In this document: piece by piece, positions 22,536-31,388 of the stretch
How the letters are laid out: every line of letters starts with the position of its first letter
Numbering within the stretch: the stretch's first letter is position 1
NCBI GenBank assembly: GCA_003021975.1
Contig: PXRR01000012.1
Location: 5,972-69,971, forward strand
DNA length: 64,000 nucleotides
Direction: 5' to 3'
Source of the DNA: Halobacteriales archaeon QS_5_70_17
GTDB taxonomy: Archaea; Halobacteriota; Halobacteria; Halobacteriales; Haloarculaceae
Notes under the pieces: model-generated
What the model was told of the DNA's origin: nothing
The model's database searches: none
What the model saw: only the letters and a program-made list of their open reading frames with translations
Position numbers and translations under genes: made by a program

Positions 22536-24218
22536 TCAGGACCCGGCGCCCTCCGGCGAGTCCGGCACGCGGTCGCGCAGTTCCGTCCGGCGGATCTTCC
22601 CGGTCACCGTCTTCGGGAGTTCGTCGACGAACTCGATGTCCCGGGGGTACTCGTGGGCCGCGAGCTCCGTCCTGACGTGGTCCCTGATGTCGTCTTTCAG
22701 GTCCTCGCTCGGCTCGTCGTCCCCCGAGGGGACGACGAAGGCCTTCACGACGTTCCCCCGCTCGGCGTCGGGCTTGGGGACGACAGCGGCCTCCGCGACG
22801 GCGTCGTGCTCGCCCAGCGACGACTCCACCTCGAAGGGACCGATCCGGTAGCCCGCGGAGACGATCACGTCGTCGGCCCGTCCCTCGAACCAGAAGTAGC
22901 CGTCCTCGTCGCGGTACCCGAGGTCCCCCGAGAGATACCAGTCGCCGACGAAGCAGTCGTCGGTCTTCTCGGGGTGCTCCCAGTAGCCGGCGAAGAAACA
23001 GGGGAAGTCGCCGCGCTCGGCGATGACGCCCGTCTCGCCGGCCGCCAGTTCCTCCCCGGTCTCGGGATCGACGACGGTGGCCGTCACGCAAGGGAGGGGT
23101 TTGCCCATGCTCCCGGGGCGGACCTCCATCTCCGGGTAGTTGTTGATGATCATGTTGCCCGTCTCGGTCTGGCCGTAGGTGTCGAGGATGGTCACGCCCA
23201 GCGCGCGCTCGCCCCACTCGACGACGCCGGCCGACAGCGGTTCGCCGATCGACAGCGCGTGCCGGAGGTCGTGGTCGACGCCGTCGAGGACGGCCTCCTC
23301 CTCGCGGAGCATCCGGTAGGCCGTCGGCACCGAGAACAGCACGGTGATCGGGTATTCGTCGAGCAGCGCGGCCCACGCCGCGGGGTCGAACTCCCCCTCG
23401 TAGGTGAAAAGCGAGGTCCCCCAGTACCACGCGCCTAGCGTGTTGATCGGGCCGGTCAGCCAGCCCAGGTCCGCCGTCGACCAGTAGAGGTCCTCGTCGG
23501 TCAGGTCGACCGCGAGCTTCTGGGTGAGCGCGACCCCCGCGACCCACCGGTGTTTGTGGAGTACGCCCTTCGCCGGCCCGGTCGTCCCGGAGGTGTAGTA
23601 CAGCAGGGCGTCGTCCTCGCCGCTAGTGTCGACGGCCTCGAAATCTGAGTCGCCGCCCGCGACCGCGTCGTGGTAGTCGACGTCGTCGTGGCCGACGCTC
23701 TCGCGGTCGACGACGATCACCTCCTCGACGCTCTGGGCCTCCTCGAGGGCCTCCCCGACCGTCTCGCGGTTCTCCGGGGTGGTGAGCACCACCCGCGCGC
23801 CGCAGTCGTCGAGGCGGTAGGCGATCCCCTGGGGACCGAACCGCTCGTTGACGCTCCCCCAGACGGCGCCGGCCTTCAGCGTGCCGAGCATCGCCGCGTA
23901 GTGCTCGGGGATCCGGGGCATGTACGAGAACACCCGGTCGCCGCGGTCGACCCGGTCGGAGAGAGCGTCGGCGAACCGGCTCGACCGGTCGCGCAGCTCG
24001 CCGAAGGTGACCGTCTCGCTGGCTCCGCCGTCGGCGTCGGGGGCCTCGCTGCCGGTCCACTCGAGGGCGACGCGGTCCGGATCGCGCTCGGCGTGTCGGT
24101 CACACGTCTCGTGTGCGACGTTCAGCGACCCCGGGGCGTCCCGGTCGGCGTCCGCGTACACGTCGTCCCAGGAGAACTCCGACCGGTCCGCTACGGGATC
24201 GAACTCGTTCCAGTCCAT
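22536..24218 (-). CDS. AMP-forming acyl-CoA synthetase (acetyl-CoA synthetase-like)
   Basis: 560 aa, ANL superfamily. It activates a short-chain carboxylate with ATP and CoA. P-loop-like YYTSGTTGPAKGVLHKH near residue 210; LDTYGQTETGN (motif A5); DWYLSGDLGYRDEDGYFWFEGRADDVI with the hinge Asp; C-terminal PKTVTGKIRR with the catalytic, acetylatable Lys. The segment YWSTADLGWLTGPINTLGAWYWG is like acetyl/propionyl-CoA synthetases of the medium subfamily, so acetate, propionate or similar acids are likely substrates. TATA-like GTAAATC lies about 30 nt upstream. Confidence 0.9.
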   Translation of the reverse strand: MDWNEFDPVADRSEFSWDDVYADADRDAPGSLNVAHETCDRHAERDPDRVALEWTGSEAPDADGGASETVTFGELRDRSSRFADALSDRVDRGDRVFSYMPRIPEHYAAMLGTLKAGAVWGSVNERFGPQGIAYRLDDCGARVVLTTPENRETVGEALEEAQSVEEVIVVDRESVGHDDVDYHDAVAGGDSDFEAVDTSGEDDALLYYTSGTTGPAKGVLHKHRWVAGVALTQKLAVDLTDEDLYWSTADLGWLTGPINTLGAWYWGTSLFTYEGEFDPAAWAALLDEYPITVLFSVPTAYRMLREEEAVLDGVDHDLRHALSIGEPLSAGVVEWGERALGVTILDTYGQTETGNMIINNYPEMEVRPGSMGKPLPCVTATVVDPETGEELAAGETGVIAERGDFPCFFAGYWEHPEKTDDCFVGDWYLSGDLGYRDEDGYFWFEGRADDVIVSAGYRIGPFEVESSLGEHDAVAEAAVVPKPDAERGNVVKAFVVPSGDDEPSEDLKDDIRDHVRTELAAHEYPRDIEFVDELPKTVTGKIRRTELRDRVPDSPEGAGS

Positions 24219-24386
24219 GTGATAGCACTCCTCACCCTGTCACTTAGCGATTTACGAACTGACACATCAGAGAGAACGTATTTCTGGCCGACACGAAGGG
24301 CGTTTACTCTCATTATCTATTGTAAGAATAATACTATCTATATCGTAAGTTTACTTATCCCGGACGTGATACAGCCGTGGAATAGA
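24219..24386. promoter_or_regulatory. A/T-rich divergent promoter region
   Basis: About 170 nt, strikingly A/T-rich between 24270 and 24360 (for example AATAATACTATCTATA), unlike anything coding around it. A TATA-like GTTTACTTAT about 32 nt before ATG 24387 serves the rightward gene; GTAAATC on the minus strand near 24250 serves the acyl-CoA synthetase. The extra A/T suggests several factor-binding sites or recently acquired DNA. Confidence 0.5.
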
Positions 24387-25379
24387 ATGAACTACAGGAG
24401 CGTCGCGGAGTTGAACGAGGAGGTACGCGGACTCGGGCAGACGCTGGCGAAGGACGTCGACCTGGTTGTCGGGATTCCTCGGTCCGGGCTCCTGGTCTCG
24501 AATCTCCTCTGTCTGTACCTCGATCGGCCGATGACCGACGTCGACGGTCTCGCCGCGGGGCGGGTGATGTCGACGGGGAACCGGTACGACGACGGCGAGC
24601 GCTTCGAGGACGTCGAGCGAGCGGTGATCGTCGACGACTCCGTCGACACCGGCCGCCAGATGGAGGCGACGCAGGACCGCGTCGCCGACCTCGACCTCCC
24701 GTTCGAGGTGGAGTACGCCGCCGCCTACGTCACCCCCGGCGGGCACCGGTACGTCGATCACTACGGCGAAGTGGTCCAGAAGCCGCGGATCTTCGAGTGG
24801 AACCTGATGCACCACCCCATGATCAGCAACTTCTGCGTCGACATCGACGGGGTGCTCTGCCGGGATCCGACCCGCCTCGAGAACGACGACGGCGACGGCT
24901 ACCGGGAGTTCCTGGAGACGGTCGCCCCGACGGTCGTCCCCAGCGAACCGATCGGCTGGCTGGTCACCTGCCGCCTGGAGAAGTACCGCGACGCCACCGA
25001 GGCCTGGCTCGCGAGACACGGCATCGAGTACGAGAACCTGGTGATGATGGACCACCCCAGCAAGGAGGCCCGACAGCGCGCGGGCGACCACGCCGAGTTC
25101 AAGGCGGAGGTCTACCGGGAGACCGGCCCGGCCCTCTTCGTCGAGAGTTCCGCCGGGCAGGCGGCCGCCATCTCCGAGGCGACCGGGAGACCCGTCTTCT
25201 GTTACGACGAAAACCGGATGCTCCAGCCCGACAGCCTCTCGCGGGCGCGCCAGCAGGGCGGCGAGTACCTCTCGCGGTTCCGCGACGATCCCGTCGGGTT
25301 CTCGCTGCTGGCCGGCAGACACGTCCTCCGGGAGTCGTACTACCGGGCCCGCCTCGCCGCCCGAGAGTACCGCGGCTGA
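24387..25379 (+). CDS. phosphoribosyltransferase-HAD-like fusion protein
   Basis: 330 aa. Residues about 20-140 are a type I phosphoribosyltransferase fold: DLVVGIPRSGLLVSNLL and the PRPP loop VIVDDSVDTG at 81-89. A second domain starts at NFCVDIDGVLCRDP (HAD motif I, DxD 152-154), with GWLVTCRLEKYRDATEAWLARHGI around motif II and later segments (HAEFKAEVYRETGPALFVESSAGQAAAISEATGRPVFCYDENRM). Related fusions occur in surface-polysaccharide and phage or plasmid gene sets, acting on sugar- or nucleotide-phosphates; the substrate here is unknown. It stands alone with an A/T-rich promoter. Confidence 0.8.
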   Translation: MNYRSVAELNEEVRGLGQTLAKDVDLVVGIPRSGLLVSNLLCLYLDRPMTDVDGLAAGRVMSTGNRYDDGERFEDVERAVIVDDSVDTGRQMEATQDRVADLDLPFEVEYAAAYVTPGGHRYVDHYGEVVQKPRIFEWNLMHHPMISNFCVDIDGVLCRDPTRLENDDGDGYREFLETVAPTVVPSEPIGWLVTCRLEKYRDATEAWLARHGIEYENLVMMDHPSKEARQRAGDHAEFKAEVYRETGPALFVESSAGQAAAISEATGRPVFCYDENRMLQPDSLSRARQQGGEYLSRFRDDPVGFSLLAGRHVLRESYYRARLAAREYRG

Positions 25380-25452
25380 TCGATCCGGGGCCGGCACGGC
25401 GTCCGCCGGGCGTCTGACGGATCGTTATGTCCCCGCGCGCGAACTCGACCAC

Positions 25453-25656
25453 ATGGACGACGAGACCGTCACGGTCGCGGAGGGAAGCGCCGGCCGGGCG
25501 TCGAGCGGTCCGCGAGCGGTCGCGACCCGCCGCGCCGGCGAACTGTGTCGCCCGCCGTCGAGGTCCCCGTGGACCGGGGACGACCGGCGGCCGATCCCGC
25601 TGCTCCGGACGGATCGAAGCGCGCGCGGAACTCCCCGCGGTAGCTCGTACCGATGA
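25453..25656 (+). CDS. doubtful 67-aa ORF overlapping the HerA-like gene start
   Basis: Begins MDDETVTVAEGSAG and ends on a TGA that overlaps the next ATG (ATGA at 25653-25656), an arrangement expected of translationally coupled genes. After about 25 residues the sequence becomes Arg/Ser/Pro-rich (PPSRSPWTGDDRRPIPLLRT), which argues against a functional protein; it might be a truncated gene. Confidence 0.25.
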   Translation: MDDETVTVAEGSAGRASSGPRAVATRRAGELCRPPSRSPWTGDDRRPIPLLRTDRSARGTPRGSSYR

Positions 25657-27285
25657 CCGACGAACCGACCATCGAGGTGGGCGAGACCGAGGACGGATCG
25701 GTCGACCTCCCGATCATCGACCTGCTCACCGGCCGCGGGTTCGTCACCGGGAAGTCGGGGTCCGGGAAGTCCAACACCGCGTCGGTCATCGCCGAGAAGC
25801 TCCTGGACCGGGGGTACGGCCTCCTGCTGGTCGACCTCGACGGGGAGTACTACGGGCTGAAAGAGCAGTACGAACTCCTGCATGTCGGCGCCGACGAGGA
25901 GTGCGACATCCAGGTGAGCGCCGAGCACGCCGAGAAGATCGCCGAGATGGCGCTGGGCAACAACGTGCCGATCATCCTCGACGTCTCCTCGTTTCTCGAC
26001 GAGTCGGAGGCCGCCGACCTGCTGACCGAAATAGCCAAACAGCTCTTCGCCAAGGGGAAAAAGCGCAAGAAGCCGTTCCTGCTGGTCGTCGAGGAGATTC
26101 ACGAGTGGATCCCCGAGGGCGGCGGTATGGGCGAGTGCGGGCGGACGCTCGTGAAGGTCGCTAAACGGGGGCGGAAACACGGGCTGGGGGTCGTCGGCAT
26201 CAGCCAGCGGCCCGCCGACGTGAAAAAGGACTTCATCACCCAGTGCGACTGGCTGTGCTGGCACCGCCTGACCTGGCGCAACGACACGAAGGTGGTCAAG
26301 CGAGTGCTCGGCAGCGAGTACGCCGAGGCCGTCGAGGGACTGGACGACGGCGAGGCGTTTCTCGTCACAGACTGGTCCGGCGAAACCCGCCGCGTGCAGT
26401 TCCACCGCAAGCAGACCTTCGACGCCGGCGCCACGCCGGGACTGGAGGACTTCGAGCGCCCCGACCTCAAGAGCGTCAGCGCCGACCTCGTGGGGGAACT
26501 GGAGTCGATCACCGACGAGCAGCGCCGCCGGGAGGACCGCATCGAGGAACTCGAGCGGGAACTCCGGGAGAAGGAGCGCCGCATCGAGATCCTCGAGCGG
26601 GACCTGGAGGAGGCCCGGGACCTCTCTCAGATGGCCGACCGGTTCGCCGAGGCCCTGTTCGACCACCCCGGCCGCTCCCGGATGCAGTTGCGATCCGAGC
26701 GGGGGACCGAACGGGACGAGCCGGCACACACCGCAGACGGAGGTTCGGGGGACGGCGGCGACGCCGACGCCGGTGTTGACCCCTCCGACGCGCCGGACGC
26801 CACCGGGGACGCCGACGCCCGGCGCGCGGTCGAACCCGCCCCCTCGGAGCAGGCGACGCTGGAGGAGAATCCCGGCACCGAGTACGACCCGGGCGTCGAG
26901 TGGCCCGACCCGCCGCTCGACGACGGCGGACGCTCGGTCGGCGGAGACGCCACCGCCGACGCGCGCTCCGAGGACCGCCCGAGCGGCGGCCGGATCGTCT
27001 CCACCGCCGACGGCGGGCGACCGGACGAGCGCGACGAGAGCGACGAGAGCGACGGGGAGGCCGACCGCCCCGTGGTCCGCCGCGTCCGAGAGGTCCTCTC
27101 AGGACTGGAGCCCGGGTCGCGCCGGTTGCTCGCGCGCTACCGCGAGGACGGCCCCTGCTCGCCGCTCGACGCCCACGTCGCCGCCGCTGCCGGACCTCGT
27201 CGCGGCCGCCCACGACGGCCGCCTCTCCGAGGCCGAGGTCGAGCGGACCGTCGCCGCCATCGAGGACGGACTGCTCGACGAGTAG
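25653..27285 (+). CDS. HerA-like ATPase (DUF87/helicase family), C-terminus frameshifted
   Basis: ATPase of the HerA/VirB4 group. Walker A GKSGSGKS at 33-40, Walker B FLLVVEEIHEW near 140, and the arginine-rich segment VKVAKRGRKHGLGVVGISQRP. A coiled coil occupies about residues 280-330 (RRREDRIEELERELREKERRIEILERDLEEAR), followed by a long acidic disordered stretch. Near base 27185 the frame breaks: the natural end LPDLVAAAHDGRLSEAEVERTVAAIEDGLLDE lies in another frame ending at TAG 27283-27285, and about 25-30 residues of the small C-terminal domain seem missing. Unshifted, the frame runs on to 27944 through unrelated sequence. The motor domain is intact. Likely role: DNA translocation or resection-type processing. 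Confidence 0.85.
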
Positions 27286-27336
27286 CGGCGGGACCGACGC
27301 CCGTGCGTTTTTGCCCTCCCGCACGCCCGGGATCGT

Positions 27337-27609
27337 ATGGAGCTGGAGTGTACCGTCTACGGTCCGCTTCGGGGGGCGACCGGCGAGAAGACGGTGACCG
27401 TCGAGTTCGGAGGCGGCACCGTCCGGGACGCCCTCGCGGCGTTCGTCGCGGCCTACCCCCGCGCCGAGTCGCAGCTGTTCGACGAGGAGGGTGCGGTCCG
27501 GCCGAGCGTCCGCGTCGCGCTGGACGGCGACCGGGTCGTCCTCGACGCGCGCTGTCGGCCGGACGCCGCGCTGGCGATCTATCCGGCGATGCGCGGAGGG
27601 AGACGATAG
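27337..27609 (+). CDS. MoaD/ThiS-like ubiquitin-fold protein (SAMP family candidate)
   Basis: 90 aa, beta-grasp. ECTVYGPLRGATGEKTVTVEF, TVRDALAAFVAAYPRAESQLFDEEG, RPSVRVALDGDRV and a C-terminal PAMRGGRR. Archaeal SAMPs and MoaD end in an exposed Gly-Gly for thiocarboxylation or isopeptide bonds; here two arginines follow the Gly pair, so maturation by a JAMM-type protease would be needed, or the protein is not conjugated. Possible roles: sulfur carrier for molybdopterin or tRNA thiolation, or protein modifier. Stands between the HerA-like ATPase and a formamidase-type gene. Confidence 0.8.
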   Translation: MELECTVYGPLRGATGEKTVTVEFGGGTVRDALAAFVAAYPRAESQLFDEEGAVRPSVRVALDGDRVVLDARCRPDAALAIYPAMRGGRR

Positions 27610-27631
27610 AGGTAGCCCGCGGGGGAGGCGG

Positions 27632-28939
27632 CTACAGGTCGTACTGCTCGCGCACTACGTCCGCGAGGCCGCGCTCCTCGAGCTTCGACATCGGCGCGAG
27701 CATGCTCAACTGGACGACCCCCGGCAGGCGGCCGATCTCGACGCCGCCGGTGAACGTACACCGCGCGCGGATCTCGCCCTCGGTCATGTCGAGCAGCGTC
27801 CCGGCGCGGTCGAAGGCGTTCTCGGTGGCGTCGTTGATCGTCGCGCCGCTGCCGATCACCTGGACCGGGCCCATCTCCTCGTTCAGTTCGACGCCGTGGG
27901 CGTCGGCCAGTTCCCGGCCCGCTTCGAGTTCCTCCTCGCCGTAGGGCTGTGCGATCGGCGGCAGGTCCTCGGCGTTAGGCAGGAGCAGCGGGCCGTCGAT
28001 GTCGAGGTCCTCGATCACCTCGACCCGGAGGGTCGTCGTCCCGCTCACGTCGGTCGTGTGCAGGGAGAGTTCGCCGTCGCCCTGGTTGGCGTGGAGGTCG
28101 CCGACGTAGAGGCCGCCGCCGTCGACCTTCACCGGGCAGATCAGCACGGCGCCGGGCCGGACGTCGTTGGAGTCGAGGTGGCCGTCGGTGCGCTCGGCGA
28201 GGTCGGCCTCGTCGCCGAGCCCCCAGTCGTGCTCGGCGCCGATCAGGAACTGCCCGAAGTCGCCGGCGTTGTGCGAGTCGGGGAGTTCCACCGGCGGCGT
28301 CGTCCCGATGTTGCCGATGAACGGCCGGAGGTGGCCGAGCGTTCCGGGCATCTCGCTGGGGCCGTACAGGAGGATCGGGTGCTGCCGGGCGTTCTCCGGC
28401 AGCGCCATGTTCGCCTCGGCGTTCTCGGCGAGGGCGCCGGCGGCCTCCTCGTCCATCGTCAGCCCGACCGTGCGGTCCTCGTCGAAGGCGACCGTGTAAC
28501 CGTACTCGAAGCCGAACGAGGAGGCGTCGGCGCCACACTCCGCACAGCGGATCGCGTCCTCGCCGGTCCCCTCGACGACGCTGTCGGGCCACTCGGTGCC
28601 GCACTCCGGACAGCGGTGGTCGACGAACGGGTCGTCGCCGAACGCCTCTTCCCGTTCGCGCATGCTCCCCGTCGAGGTGGCGAGGCTGGTCACCTCGACG
28701 TCCTCGATGTAGACGGCGATGGCGTCGCCGACCTCGGCGCCCTCGACGGCGATCGGTCGAGTCACCTCGTGGCCGCCCCGGAAGCCGGGAGTGATCATCG
28801 GCCCCCAGCAGGCCGGCGGCGTGTGCGTCCGGACGGTGCCGCCGTCGGCGACCGTCCCCGCCCACTCCTGGTCGGGTCCGACGAGTCCGAGCGTGTACTG
28901 GTCGACCTCCAGTTCCTGTTGGATCTCTCGCTGTGCCAT
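27632..28939 (-). CDS. acetamidase/formamidase family protein
   Basis: 435 aa. FmdA/AmdA fold: THTPPACWGPMITPGFRGGHEVTRPIAVEGAEVGDAIAVYIEDVEVTS at the start, then GHLRPFIGNIGTTP and NAGDFGQFLIGAEHDWGL, DGGGLYVGDLHANQGDGELS (metal-binding His/Asp), and the ATINDATENAFDRAGTLL segment. An inserted zinc ribbon (RCPECGTEW...RCAECGAD, about residues 108-145) is typical of the longer archaeal/bacterial acetamidases. Hydrolyses short amides to acid plus ammonia. No amide transporter or urease genes are adjacent. Confidence 0.92.
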   Translation of the reverse strand: MAQREIQQELEVDQYTLGLVGPDQEWAGTVADGGTVRTHTPPACWGPMITPGFRGGHEVTRPIAVEGAEVGDAIAVYIEDVEVTSLATSTGSMREREEAFGDDPFVDHRCPECGTEWPDSVVEGTGEDAIRCAECGADASSFGFEYGYTVAFDEDRTVGLTMDEEAAGALAENAEANMALPENARQHPILLYGPSEMPGTLGHLRPFIGNIGTTPPVELPDSHNAGDFGQFLIGAEHDWGLGDEADLAERTDGHLDSNDVRPGAVLICPVKVDGGGLYVGDLHANQGDGELSLHTTDVSGTTTLRVEVIEDLDIDGPLLLPNAEDLPPIAQPYGEEELEAGRELADAHGVELNEEMGPVQVIGSGATINDATENAFDRAGTLLDMTEGEIRARCTFTGGVEIGRLPGVVQLSMLAPMSKLEERGLADVVREQYDL

Positions 28940-29723: not shown

Positions 29724-30858
29724 ATGGGTCAGCGCGAAGGCGGAGCGGTTCCGGCTCCCGGCCGAACACGAGGCCGTCAGGGAATTCGGCGAGCGGGAGA
29801 TCCGTCCGGTCGCCGCCGAGTACGAGGCCGAGGGACGCTACCTCGCGGAGCTGCCGGCGCGGGCGGGGGAGTACGGCTTCGTCGCGCCGCGGATCCCCGA
29901 GGCCCACAGCGGTACGGGAACGAACGTGCTGGGCGCGCCCGTCGTGACCGAAGAACTCTGGCGGGCCGACGCCGGCGTCAGCGGCTCCATCGCGGCCGCG
30001 GACTTCGGGACGGAGATGCTGCTCGCGTACGACGAGGAGTGGATGCGAGAGGAGTGGCTGCCGCCGATCGCCGCCGGCGAGACGCACATCGCGACGGCCA
30101 TCTCGGAGCCGGCCCACGGGTCGAACGTCGCCGGCATGGAGACCCGCGCCGAGCGCGACGGCGGCGAGTGGGTCATCGACGGTACCGAGATGTGGAACAC
30201 CAACGGCACCGTCGCCGACGTGATGATCTTCATGGCCAGGACCACGCCCGGCGCGGGCCACGGCGACATCACCGCGTTCCTCACCCGACGGACGCAGACG
30301 GGATCAGCGGCGAGCGCATCACGAACAAGCTCGGCATCGAGCCCCAGGACACCGCGGAGCTCGTCTTCGACGGCCTCCGCGTCCCCCACGAGAACGGCGG
30401 CGGCGCGGTCGGCGAGGGGTTCTACCAGCTGATGGAGTTCTTCCCGTCCGGACGGACGTGGCCGCCCAGGCCGCGGGCGTCTCGCAGGCAGCCCTGGAGG
30501 TCGCCGTCGAGTACGCCGGCGAGCGCGAGCAGTTCGGCCGGCCCATCGGCGAGTTCCAGGCCATCCGGCACAGGATCGCCGAGATGGCGACGAGCGTCGA
30601 GGCGGCCCGGTCGCTGGCCTACCGCGCCGGCGCCGCCATCGAGGCCGATGCCGACCGGGCCACGCGGCTGGCGAGCGCGGCGAAGCTGTTCGCCTCCGAG
30701 CGGGCCGTCGAGGTCGCCGACGAGGCGATTCAGGTGTTCGGCGGCGCCGGCTACGTCACCCCCCCCCCGTCGAGCGCTACTACCGCGATGCCCGGATCAC
30801 GAAGACCTACGAGGGGACCAGCGAGATCCAGAAGAACATCGTCGCCGCCCTGCTCTAG
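29724..30858 (+). pseudogene. acyl-CoA dehydrogenase, multiply frameshifted
   Basis: A full acyl-CoA dehydrogenase can be pieced together only by changing frame at least four times. The N-terminal part ERFRLPAEHEAVREFGEREIRPVAAEYEAEGRY has no in-frame start after ATG 29724; then TAISEPAHGSNVAGMETRAERDGGEWVIDGTEMWNTNG; a break near 30292; PTDADGISGERITNKLGIEPQDTAELVFDGLRVP; a break near 30455; DVAAQAAGVSQAALEVAVEYAGEREQFGRPI and QVFGGAGYVT; a break in the C-run at 30762-30770; then VERYYRDARITKTYEGTSEIQKNIVAALL to TAG. FAD- and CoA-binding motifs are all visible. It would have oxidised acyl-CoA in fatty-acid or amino-acid breakdown. Its stop shares CTAG with convergent aMBF1. Confidence 0.88.
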
Positions 30859-31388
30859 TCCTTGCGCTTGACGACGTCCCCGAGGGTGTACGACCCGGTG
30901 GACTTGCCGCCCTCCCACTCCTCGTCGTCGCCGGTGCTCCCGCCAGCGGTCAGCGAGATCGAGAGCCGGCGCTCGAGCTTCTGCTGGACGCCGTCGCTCG
31001 GGAGGACGTCCCCGCGCTCGAGCTTCCGGATGAGGCTCACCTTCTCGTTGAGGTCGTCGGCGAGTTCCTCCTGGGTGAGGTCGGCCCCCTCGCGGGCGTT
31101 CCGGATGCGCTCGTCGTAGTCCGGGGCCACCTCGTCCATCTCGTCGAACATGTCCCGGCGGCGCCCCGAGTTCCCGGAGGACGACGCGGACGACGCAGAC
31201 GAGGAGTCCCCCGATGAGGACGCGGAATTAGCGCCCGTCGAGTACTTGGTCGAGGCGCTCTCGGAGGACTCGGTGCGCACCTCCGTCCCGAAGTCGGCGC
31301 AGTCGTCGCAGACCTGGATCTCGGCCCCCTCGATTTTCACCGTCTCGGGCGACGCAGTCTCCGCTCCGCACATCTCGCATTGCGGCAT
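30855..31388 (-). CDS. multiprotein bridging factor aMBF1
   Basis: 177 aa. An N-terminal zinc ribbon (PQCEMCGAETASPETVKIEGAEIQVCDDCADFG) is joined by a Ser-rich linker to a C-terminal Cro/C1-type HTH (IRNAREGADLTQEELADDLNEKVSLIRKLERGDVLPSDGVQQKLERRL). This is the archaeal MBF1 architecture; the protein associates with the ribosome/translation apparatus or transcription machinery. Start at ATG 31388 (MPQCEMCG) agrees with the family; a TATA-like CATTTATG about 28 nt upstream supports a leaderless mRNA. The Ser-rich linker (ASSSGDSSSASSASSSGNS) is unusually long. Confidence 0.93.
   Translation of the reverse strand: MPQCEMCGAETASPETVKIEGAEIQVCDDCADFGTEVRTESSESASTKYSTGANSASSSGDSSSASSASSSGNSGRRRDMFDEMDEVAPDYDERIRNAREGADLTQEELADDLNEKVSLIRKLERGDVLPSDGVQQKLERRLSISLTAGGSTGDDEEWEGGKSTGSYTLGDVVKRKD

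Follow-up and report, generated by a model that had tools for sequence, protein, structure and literature searches.

What would be made by an enzyme that joins a phosphoribosyltransferase (PRTase) to a HAD phosphatase in one polypeptide? The question is raised by a gene in the haloarchaeal DNA analyzed here, a stretch of 64,000 nucleotides that we call the window. The first-pass annotation had placed both activities in one 330-aa protein within positions 24219-25379, and this span indeed consists of an open reading frame at 24387-25379 (+ strand, ATG start) and the intergenic region before it. The PRPP loop VIVDDSVDTG that had been recognized corresponds to residues 80-89 and the HAD motif DIDGVL to residues 152-157. 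The reading frame is open 5' of 24387, and nearly all homologues start at the same alignment position. AlphaFold2 models the protein with a mean pLDDT of 85.6 and a pTM of 0.59. It comprises a PRTase domain (residues 1-140; 24387-24806, + strand), a HAD phosphatase domain (residues 141-283, about 144-275; 24807-25235, + strand) and a weakly conserved C-terminal helical extension (residues 281-330; 25227-25376, + strand) that is missing from most phage homologues.

We compared both halves with known families and solved structures. Residues 20-138 match PF00156 (E 2.1e-06), as do 46/46 relatives, and Foldseek aligns the N-terminal half with purine PRTases of Sulfolobus, Pyrococcus and E. coli. 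The closest solved PRTase relatives, found with a profile of 46 members against PDB sequences and with Foldseek, are GpT-1, GpT-2 and XPRT. No Pfam family matches the HAD half, whose matches are instead phage PNKP families (E 4e-07) and the solved Pnkp1 (E 6.3e-06); modeled alone, this half reaches a pLDDT of 92.8, and Foldseek returns Pnkp1 at rank 1 together with the T4 Pnkp phosphatase. Structural comparison with orotate PRTases and HAD phosphatases, the check first proposed for this protein, bore out the HAD fold, but the nearest PRTases are the purine enzymes XPRT and GpT and not orotate PRTase. The catalytic residues of the HAD half are kept: D152 and D154 in 44/46 relatives, T194 in 44/46, K239 in 46/46 and E253 in 45/46.

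Kinship with purine PRTases opens one explanation, which we consider unlikely. The protein would be a nucleobase (purine or other) PRTase fused to a nucleotidase, making a nucleoside monophosphate and then dephosphorylating it for salvage, for export or as the precursor of a modified nucleoside. Besides GpT-1, GpT-2 and XPRT as closest solved relatives, this explanation can call on the best NCBIfam match, a xanthine PRTase model that is far under its cut-off (20.6 vs 138 bits), and on W138 at the purine-stacking position, which is Trp in 46/46 members. In E. coli XGPRT, we take the roles to be that a Lys contacts O6 of the purine, an Asp contacts N7 and a Trp stacks on the base. HMMER alignments with four purine PRTases tell against a purine enzyme at the first two of these positions, since the position aligned to the XPRT-type purine-contact Lys is Lys in 0/46 members and that aligned to the XPRT-type PRPP-loop Asp is Asp in 8/46. 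Aromatic side chains can stack against sugars no less than against bases; the invariant Trp could stack a nucleobase equally well, which counts against the glycan ribosylation proposed below. The PRPP-handling residues are conserved, with a PPi loop GIPRSG at residues 29-34 (G34 in 46/46, R32 in 45/46) and a PRPP loop in which D84 and G89 occur in 46/46 and D83 in 42/46. Because these loops are conserved while the Lys and Asp contacts are lost or variable, the enzyme should still bind PRPP, and a purine is probably not its acceptor. In addition, making a nucleotide only to destroy it at once would be futile for salvage, and the loci examined have no nucleotide-gene linkage; the gene is linked or fused to glycan enzymes instead. 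Pyrimidine salvage was rejected as well: an orotate PRTase-like model scores 14.4 bits against a cut-off of 115, and the UPRTase Pfam family matches 2/46 relatives, weakly. The homologues thus did not turn out to be plain pyrimidine salvage enzymes, the outcome named at the start as refuting a more unusual role.

In the window the gene is flanked by housekeeping genes, with no glycan or nucleotide gene adjoining. A divergent acyl-CoA synthetase (AMP-binding; 22536-24218, - strand) lies on one side and a HerA/DUF87-type ATPase (25653-27300, + strand, end approximate given a probable frameshift near 27100) on the other, and we place both outside the system. The synthetase sits near HerA in congeners too, and in two of them (G378 and G240) the interval between them lacks the fusion gene, which sits elsewhere; this interval measures 962 bp in G240 vs about 1530 bp in the window genome. 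In two further genomes (G400 and G401) the fusion gene lies on the other side of the acyl-CoA synthetase, ~3 kb away. The location of the fusion gene is not conserved, even inside the genus. The isolation from nucleotide and polysaccharide operons described in the first-pass annotation therefore holds for the window but not for the family, which is linked to polysaccharide genes in relatives. Among congeners the synthetase-HerA interval (24219-25653) differs in content and in length (gaps of roughly 0.96 to 2.5 kb), resembling a small hot spot for insertions. We also observed an apparent frame shift near 27100 in the HerA-like ORF (25653-27944) and a probable acyl-CoA dehydrogenase (29926-30871) broken across two frames, both likely assembly frameshifts of a draft genome (78 contigs, 73% complete). 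A search of the DNA surrounding the fusion gene found no RNA families, and its repeats were GC-rich chance matches only.

The intergenic region upstream (24219-24386), a probable promoter, had been singled out as exceptionally A/T-rich, and it is: at 42% GC in a window of 70% GC, it is the lowest among the 37 intergenic regions of at least 80 nt (next 53%, median 71%), with a minimum of 33% in 90 nt. We examined the upstream DNA of 29 haloarchaeal homologues, in which A/T content peaks at positions -33 to -27 relative to the start codon; within -42 to -21, 17/29 homologues carry five or more consecutive A/T, vs 2% of 22-nt segments drawn at random from the window. For a leaderless haloarchaeal transcript, the TATA box would be expected to give such a peak. 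Since the homologues share it, the likeliest reading of the region is as an ordinary haloarchaeal promoter and intergenic region. The upstream DNA of the window gene is unusual in the degree of its A/T-richness, and a special explanation is unnecessary.

The PRTase-HAD family occurs in 42/394 genomes of the class Halobacteria, in 11/86 genera, and on 41 plasmids of Alphaproteobacteria, with scattered members in Verrucomicrobia, KSB1, Planctomycetes, Cyanobacteria, Spirochaetes, Gemmatimonadota and Bacteroidales. In a tree, a single branch (95/90 support) has the haloarchaeal sequences all on the same side, as would fit one acquisition or one origin. One haloarchaeon (G170) carries a tandem pair of PRTase-HAD genes (L061:8744-10964). 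HAD motif I of the second copy is degraded, with DLS for DxDG, so this copy may lean on the phosphatase of the first.

The neighborhoods of relatives point toward glycans. In Paracoccus, Rhodobacter and Bosea the gene lies beside a flippase annotated as 'lipopolysaccharide biosynthesis protein', glycosyltransferases, acyltransferases and a nucleotide sugar dehydrogenase. Using an HMM made from the flippase cluster, we detected a PF13440-type (Wzx-type) flippase at most 4 kb from the gene in 7/7 alphaproteobacterial plasmid loci opened, and in three of the seven it is directly upstream and co-directional with gaps of 18-39 bp. The GT2, Polysacc_synt and GT4 families top the Pfam tallies of bacterial neighbors. 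Haloarchaeal neighbors are mixed, sulfatases being commonest (4/106), and at most haloarchaeal loci examined, as in the window, no glycan gene adjoins the PRTase-HAD gene, which argues against glycan ribosylation. A flippase is adjacent or near in five haloarchaeal loci (L056, L064, L051, L053 and L065). It is directly upstream of the gene in L056 and L064, the latter also with a GT4 and a phosphomannomutase-family gene nearby, while in L051 and L053 the gene is inside clusters with a sugar dehydrogenase, a sulfatase, a pyruvyl transferase and a flippase. Sulfatase-family genes of one cluster (c9) recur a few genes from the PRTase-HAD gene in L051, L052, L053 and L054, which suggests sulfated glycans. 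Location in a glycan cluster is seen at the plasmid loci of Alphaproteobacteria and, among haloarchaeal loci, in a minority; it is absent in the window. The window genome does encode a flippase of the right type, but elsewhere (G000:C53), and the window gene itself is connected to glycans only through this flippase and its family membership.

Flippase and fusion gene also tend to occur in the same haloarchaeal genomes. A strong PF13440 flippase (E <= 1e-50) is present in 41/42 gene-positive vs 67/352 gene-negative genomes and, by genus, in 11/11 gene-positive vs 19/75 gene-negative genera, both counts ignoring kinship. That class-wide statistics disregard kinship, and that the cut-off was picked after seeing the first 23 positive genomes, weigh against the glycan reading. 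Within a single genus of 53 genomes, the flippase occurs in 10/11 gene-positive vs 10/42 gene-negative genomes (Fisher p 8e-5). Two positives new to this within-genus search (G394 and G399) both have the flippase, in G394 at 0.7 kb from the gene. For two control families in the same genus, Cas1 (4/11 vs 9/42) and pyruvyl transferase (2/11 vs 8/42), the association with the gene is slight or absent.

Scanning IMG/VR with a profile yielded seven full-length viral relatives; a single-sequence viral scan returned none, and GenBank phage records contained no relatives. In one metagenomic phage contig (IMGVR_UViG_3300001533_000175; L078:5896-7767), a single 623-aa frame combines PRTase (48-164), HAD (about 181-291) and GT4 (449-584) domains directly after portal, Mu F-like and capsid genes, making it a candidate for glycosylating the virion or the host surface. 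A search for a second viral PRTase-HAD-GT4 fusion returned this contig alone, a further point against glycan ribosylation. In three other IMG/VR contigs (L073, L077 and L079) a short PRTase-HAD gene overlaps the start of the downstream gene by 8-16 nt. The downstream gene matches the PF03407 nucleotide-diphospho-sugar transferase family in L073 and L077, the two tested, both of which also have methyltransferase genes upstream; those of L073 include a rhamnosyl O-methyltransferase family member just upstream. This arrangement is that of a putative small phage glycan module. Given the fusion and the overlap coupling, the partners seem to act on the same product. The survey of neighborhoods in archaea and viruses that had been called for at the outset thus revealed glycan linkage in bacteria, phages and a minority of haloarchaeal loci, most haloarchaeal loci being without glycan genes.

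Because relatives accompany, and once fuse to, sugar-polymer enzymes, we favor ribosylation of surface glycans over nucleotide salvage, and propose that the protein is probably a compact, two-step, PRPP-dependent ribosyltransferase for glycans. The observations behind this proposal are the domain make-up, the catalytic motifs, the altered purine contacts and, in relatives, the linkage, co-occurrence and fusion with glycan genes. The N-terminal PRTase domain would bind PRPP-Mg and place the 5-phosphoribosyl group on a sugar hydroxyl. The acceptor is probably a lipid-linked glycan, to be exported later by a Wzx-type flippase. The C-terminal HAD domain would then strip the 5-phosphate to leave a ribofuranosyl residue. 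In a Halomarina-like host, where the gene lies apart from glycan clusters, the enzyme would act in trans from its own promoter. We infer the substrate, the acceptor, the stereochemistry, the order of the steps and the action in trans. The proposal comes close to the first-pass suggestion of a bifunctional enzyme that forms a ribosyl compound and removes its phosphate, or of a surface-related enzyme, which the motifs and glycan linkage support; the defence-related alternative offered with it found no support, as no PADLOC model matched up to E 1, and we rejected an anti-phage defence protein.

The flippase association would also suit an enzyme that places ribose-5-phosphate on polyprenyl phosphate and dephosphorylates it to a lipid-ribose donor, in the manner of DPPRS/PPPRS. 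The C-terminal helix of cellular members could touch the membrane, and lipid-ribose has precedent in mycobacteria and Citrobacter (PMC11127046). We nevertheless regard this route as quite improbable, since the lipid PRTases known so far are membrane proteins of the UbiA type (PMC11127046) whereas the family here has a soluble type I PRTase fold, and the helix is missing in most phage members. Finally, a gene that stands alone in most haloarchaea and is found in phages might serve regulation, stress responses or defence through an enzyme that produces a nucleoside-like metabolite, a role proposed for Ter-associated PRTases; its neighbors would then be there by chance. The glycan association and the missing PADLOC match speak against such a role, as does the weak match, in 1/46 members, to PRTase_2 (PF15609), which we take to be the Ter-associated PRTase family; we hold it to be very unlikely.

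Returning to glycan ribosylation, a broader claim seems to us about evenly balanced: that the family constitutes a second class of PRPP-dependent ribofuranosyltransferases, one that evolved separately, combines a PRTase of purine type with a HAD of PNKP type, and serves bacterial and haloarchaeal cell-surface glycans and the glycan decoration of phages. We know of no PRPP-dependent ribofuranosyltransferase described for cell-surface glycans in archaea, and a literature search for the PRTase-HAD family in haloarchaeal glycans found nothing. For bacterial glycans, to our knowledge, the donor and transferase of ribose went without identification until about 2022. If the claim is true, PRPP ribosylation chemistry would extend to a new domain of life through a compact second architecture, a family filed so far only as 'phosphoribosyltransferase' would gain a functional name, and ribose would be predicted in haloarchaeal and some phage glycans.

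The proposed chemistry has a bacterial counterpart. The ribofuranose of the Klebsiella O4 and O7 O-antigens, the Hib capsule and the Campylobacter HS:2 capsule comes from PRPP in two steps, in which a glycan PRTase adds ribose-5-phosphate and a HAD phosphatase then dephosphorylates it (PMC11127046, PMC10299916, PMC11231755, PMC12096443). The gPRT-PRP enzymes (Klebsiella O4 ORF5 and O7 ORF7, with a structure from Thermobacillus composti) likewise join a PRPP-using PRTase and a HAD in one polypeptide in glycan clusters, a combination found in the family here by domains and motifs, with PRPP binding predicted. In contrast, our family has an N-terminal PRTase of only ~140 aa. No known gPRT-PRP chain, T. 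composti and Bcs3 included, was retrieved when the 46-member profile (to E 1) and a HAD profile (to E 10) were run against PDB sequences, nor was one named among the top 50 Foldseek matches of either model, the presence of these chains in the libraries being unconfirmed; this weighs against glycan ribosylation. We therefore class the family as working like gPRT-PRP enzymes and not as a member of them.

Hib Bcs3 CriT-CrpP and Campylobacter Cj1432 also have a HAD plus a PRTase, and Cj1432, which carries GT4, HAD (357-573) and PRTase (574-914) in one chain (PMC12096443), shares its GT4 fusion with the phage protein of L078. In Cj1432, however, the HAD precedes the PRTase, whereas in our family the PRTase comes first; and in CriT the PRTase DD motif is formed by differently placed side chains (PMC10299916), whereas our family keeps the canonical VDDS loop. 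With the purine PRTases (Sulfolobus GpT-1/GpT-2 and XPRT) the family has in common the PRTase fold, the type I PRPP and PPi loops and the Trp at the stacking position, but it lacks the purine-contact Lys, has mostly lost the Asp and carries a fused HAD. It resembles the PNKP 3'-phosphatase HAD domains (Pnkp1 and T4 Pnkp) in HAD fold and motifs, but has no polynucleotide kinase domain or RNA-repair partner, its N-terminal half being a PRTase. As there is no listed sequence or fold match, and both the domain order (compared with Cj1432) and the type of PRTase differ, the PRTase-HAD family looks like a separate, compact solution relative to the gPRT-PRP enzymes.
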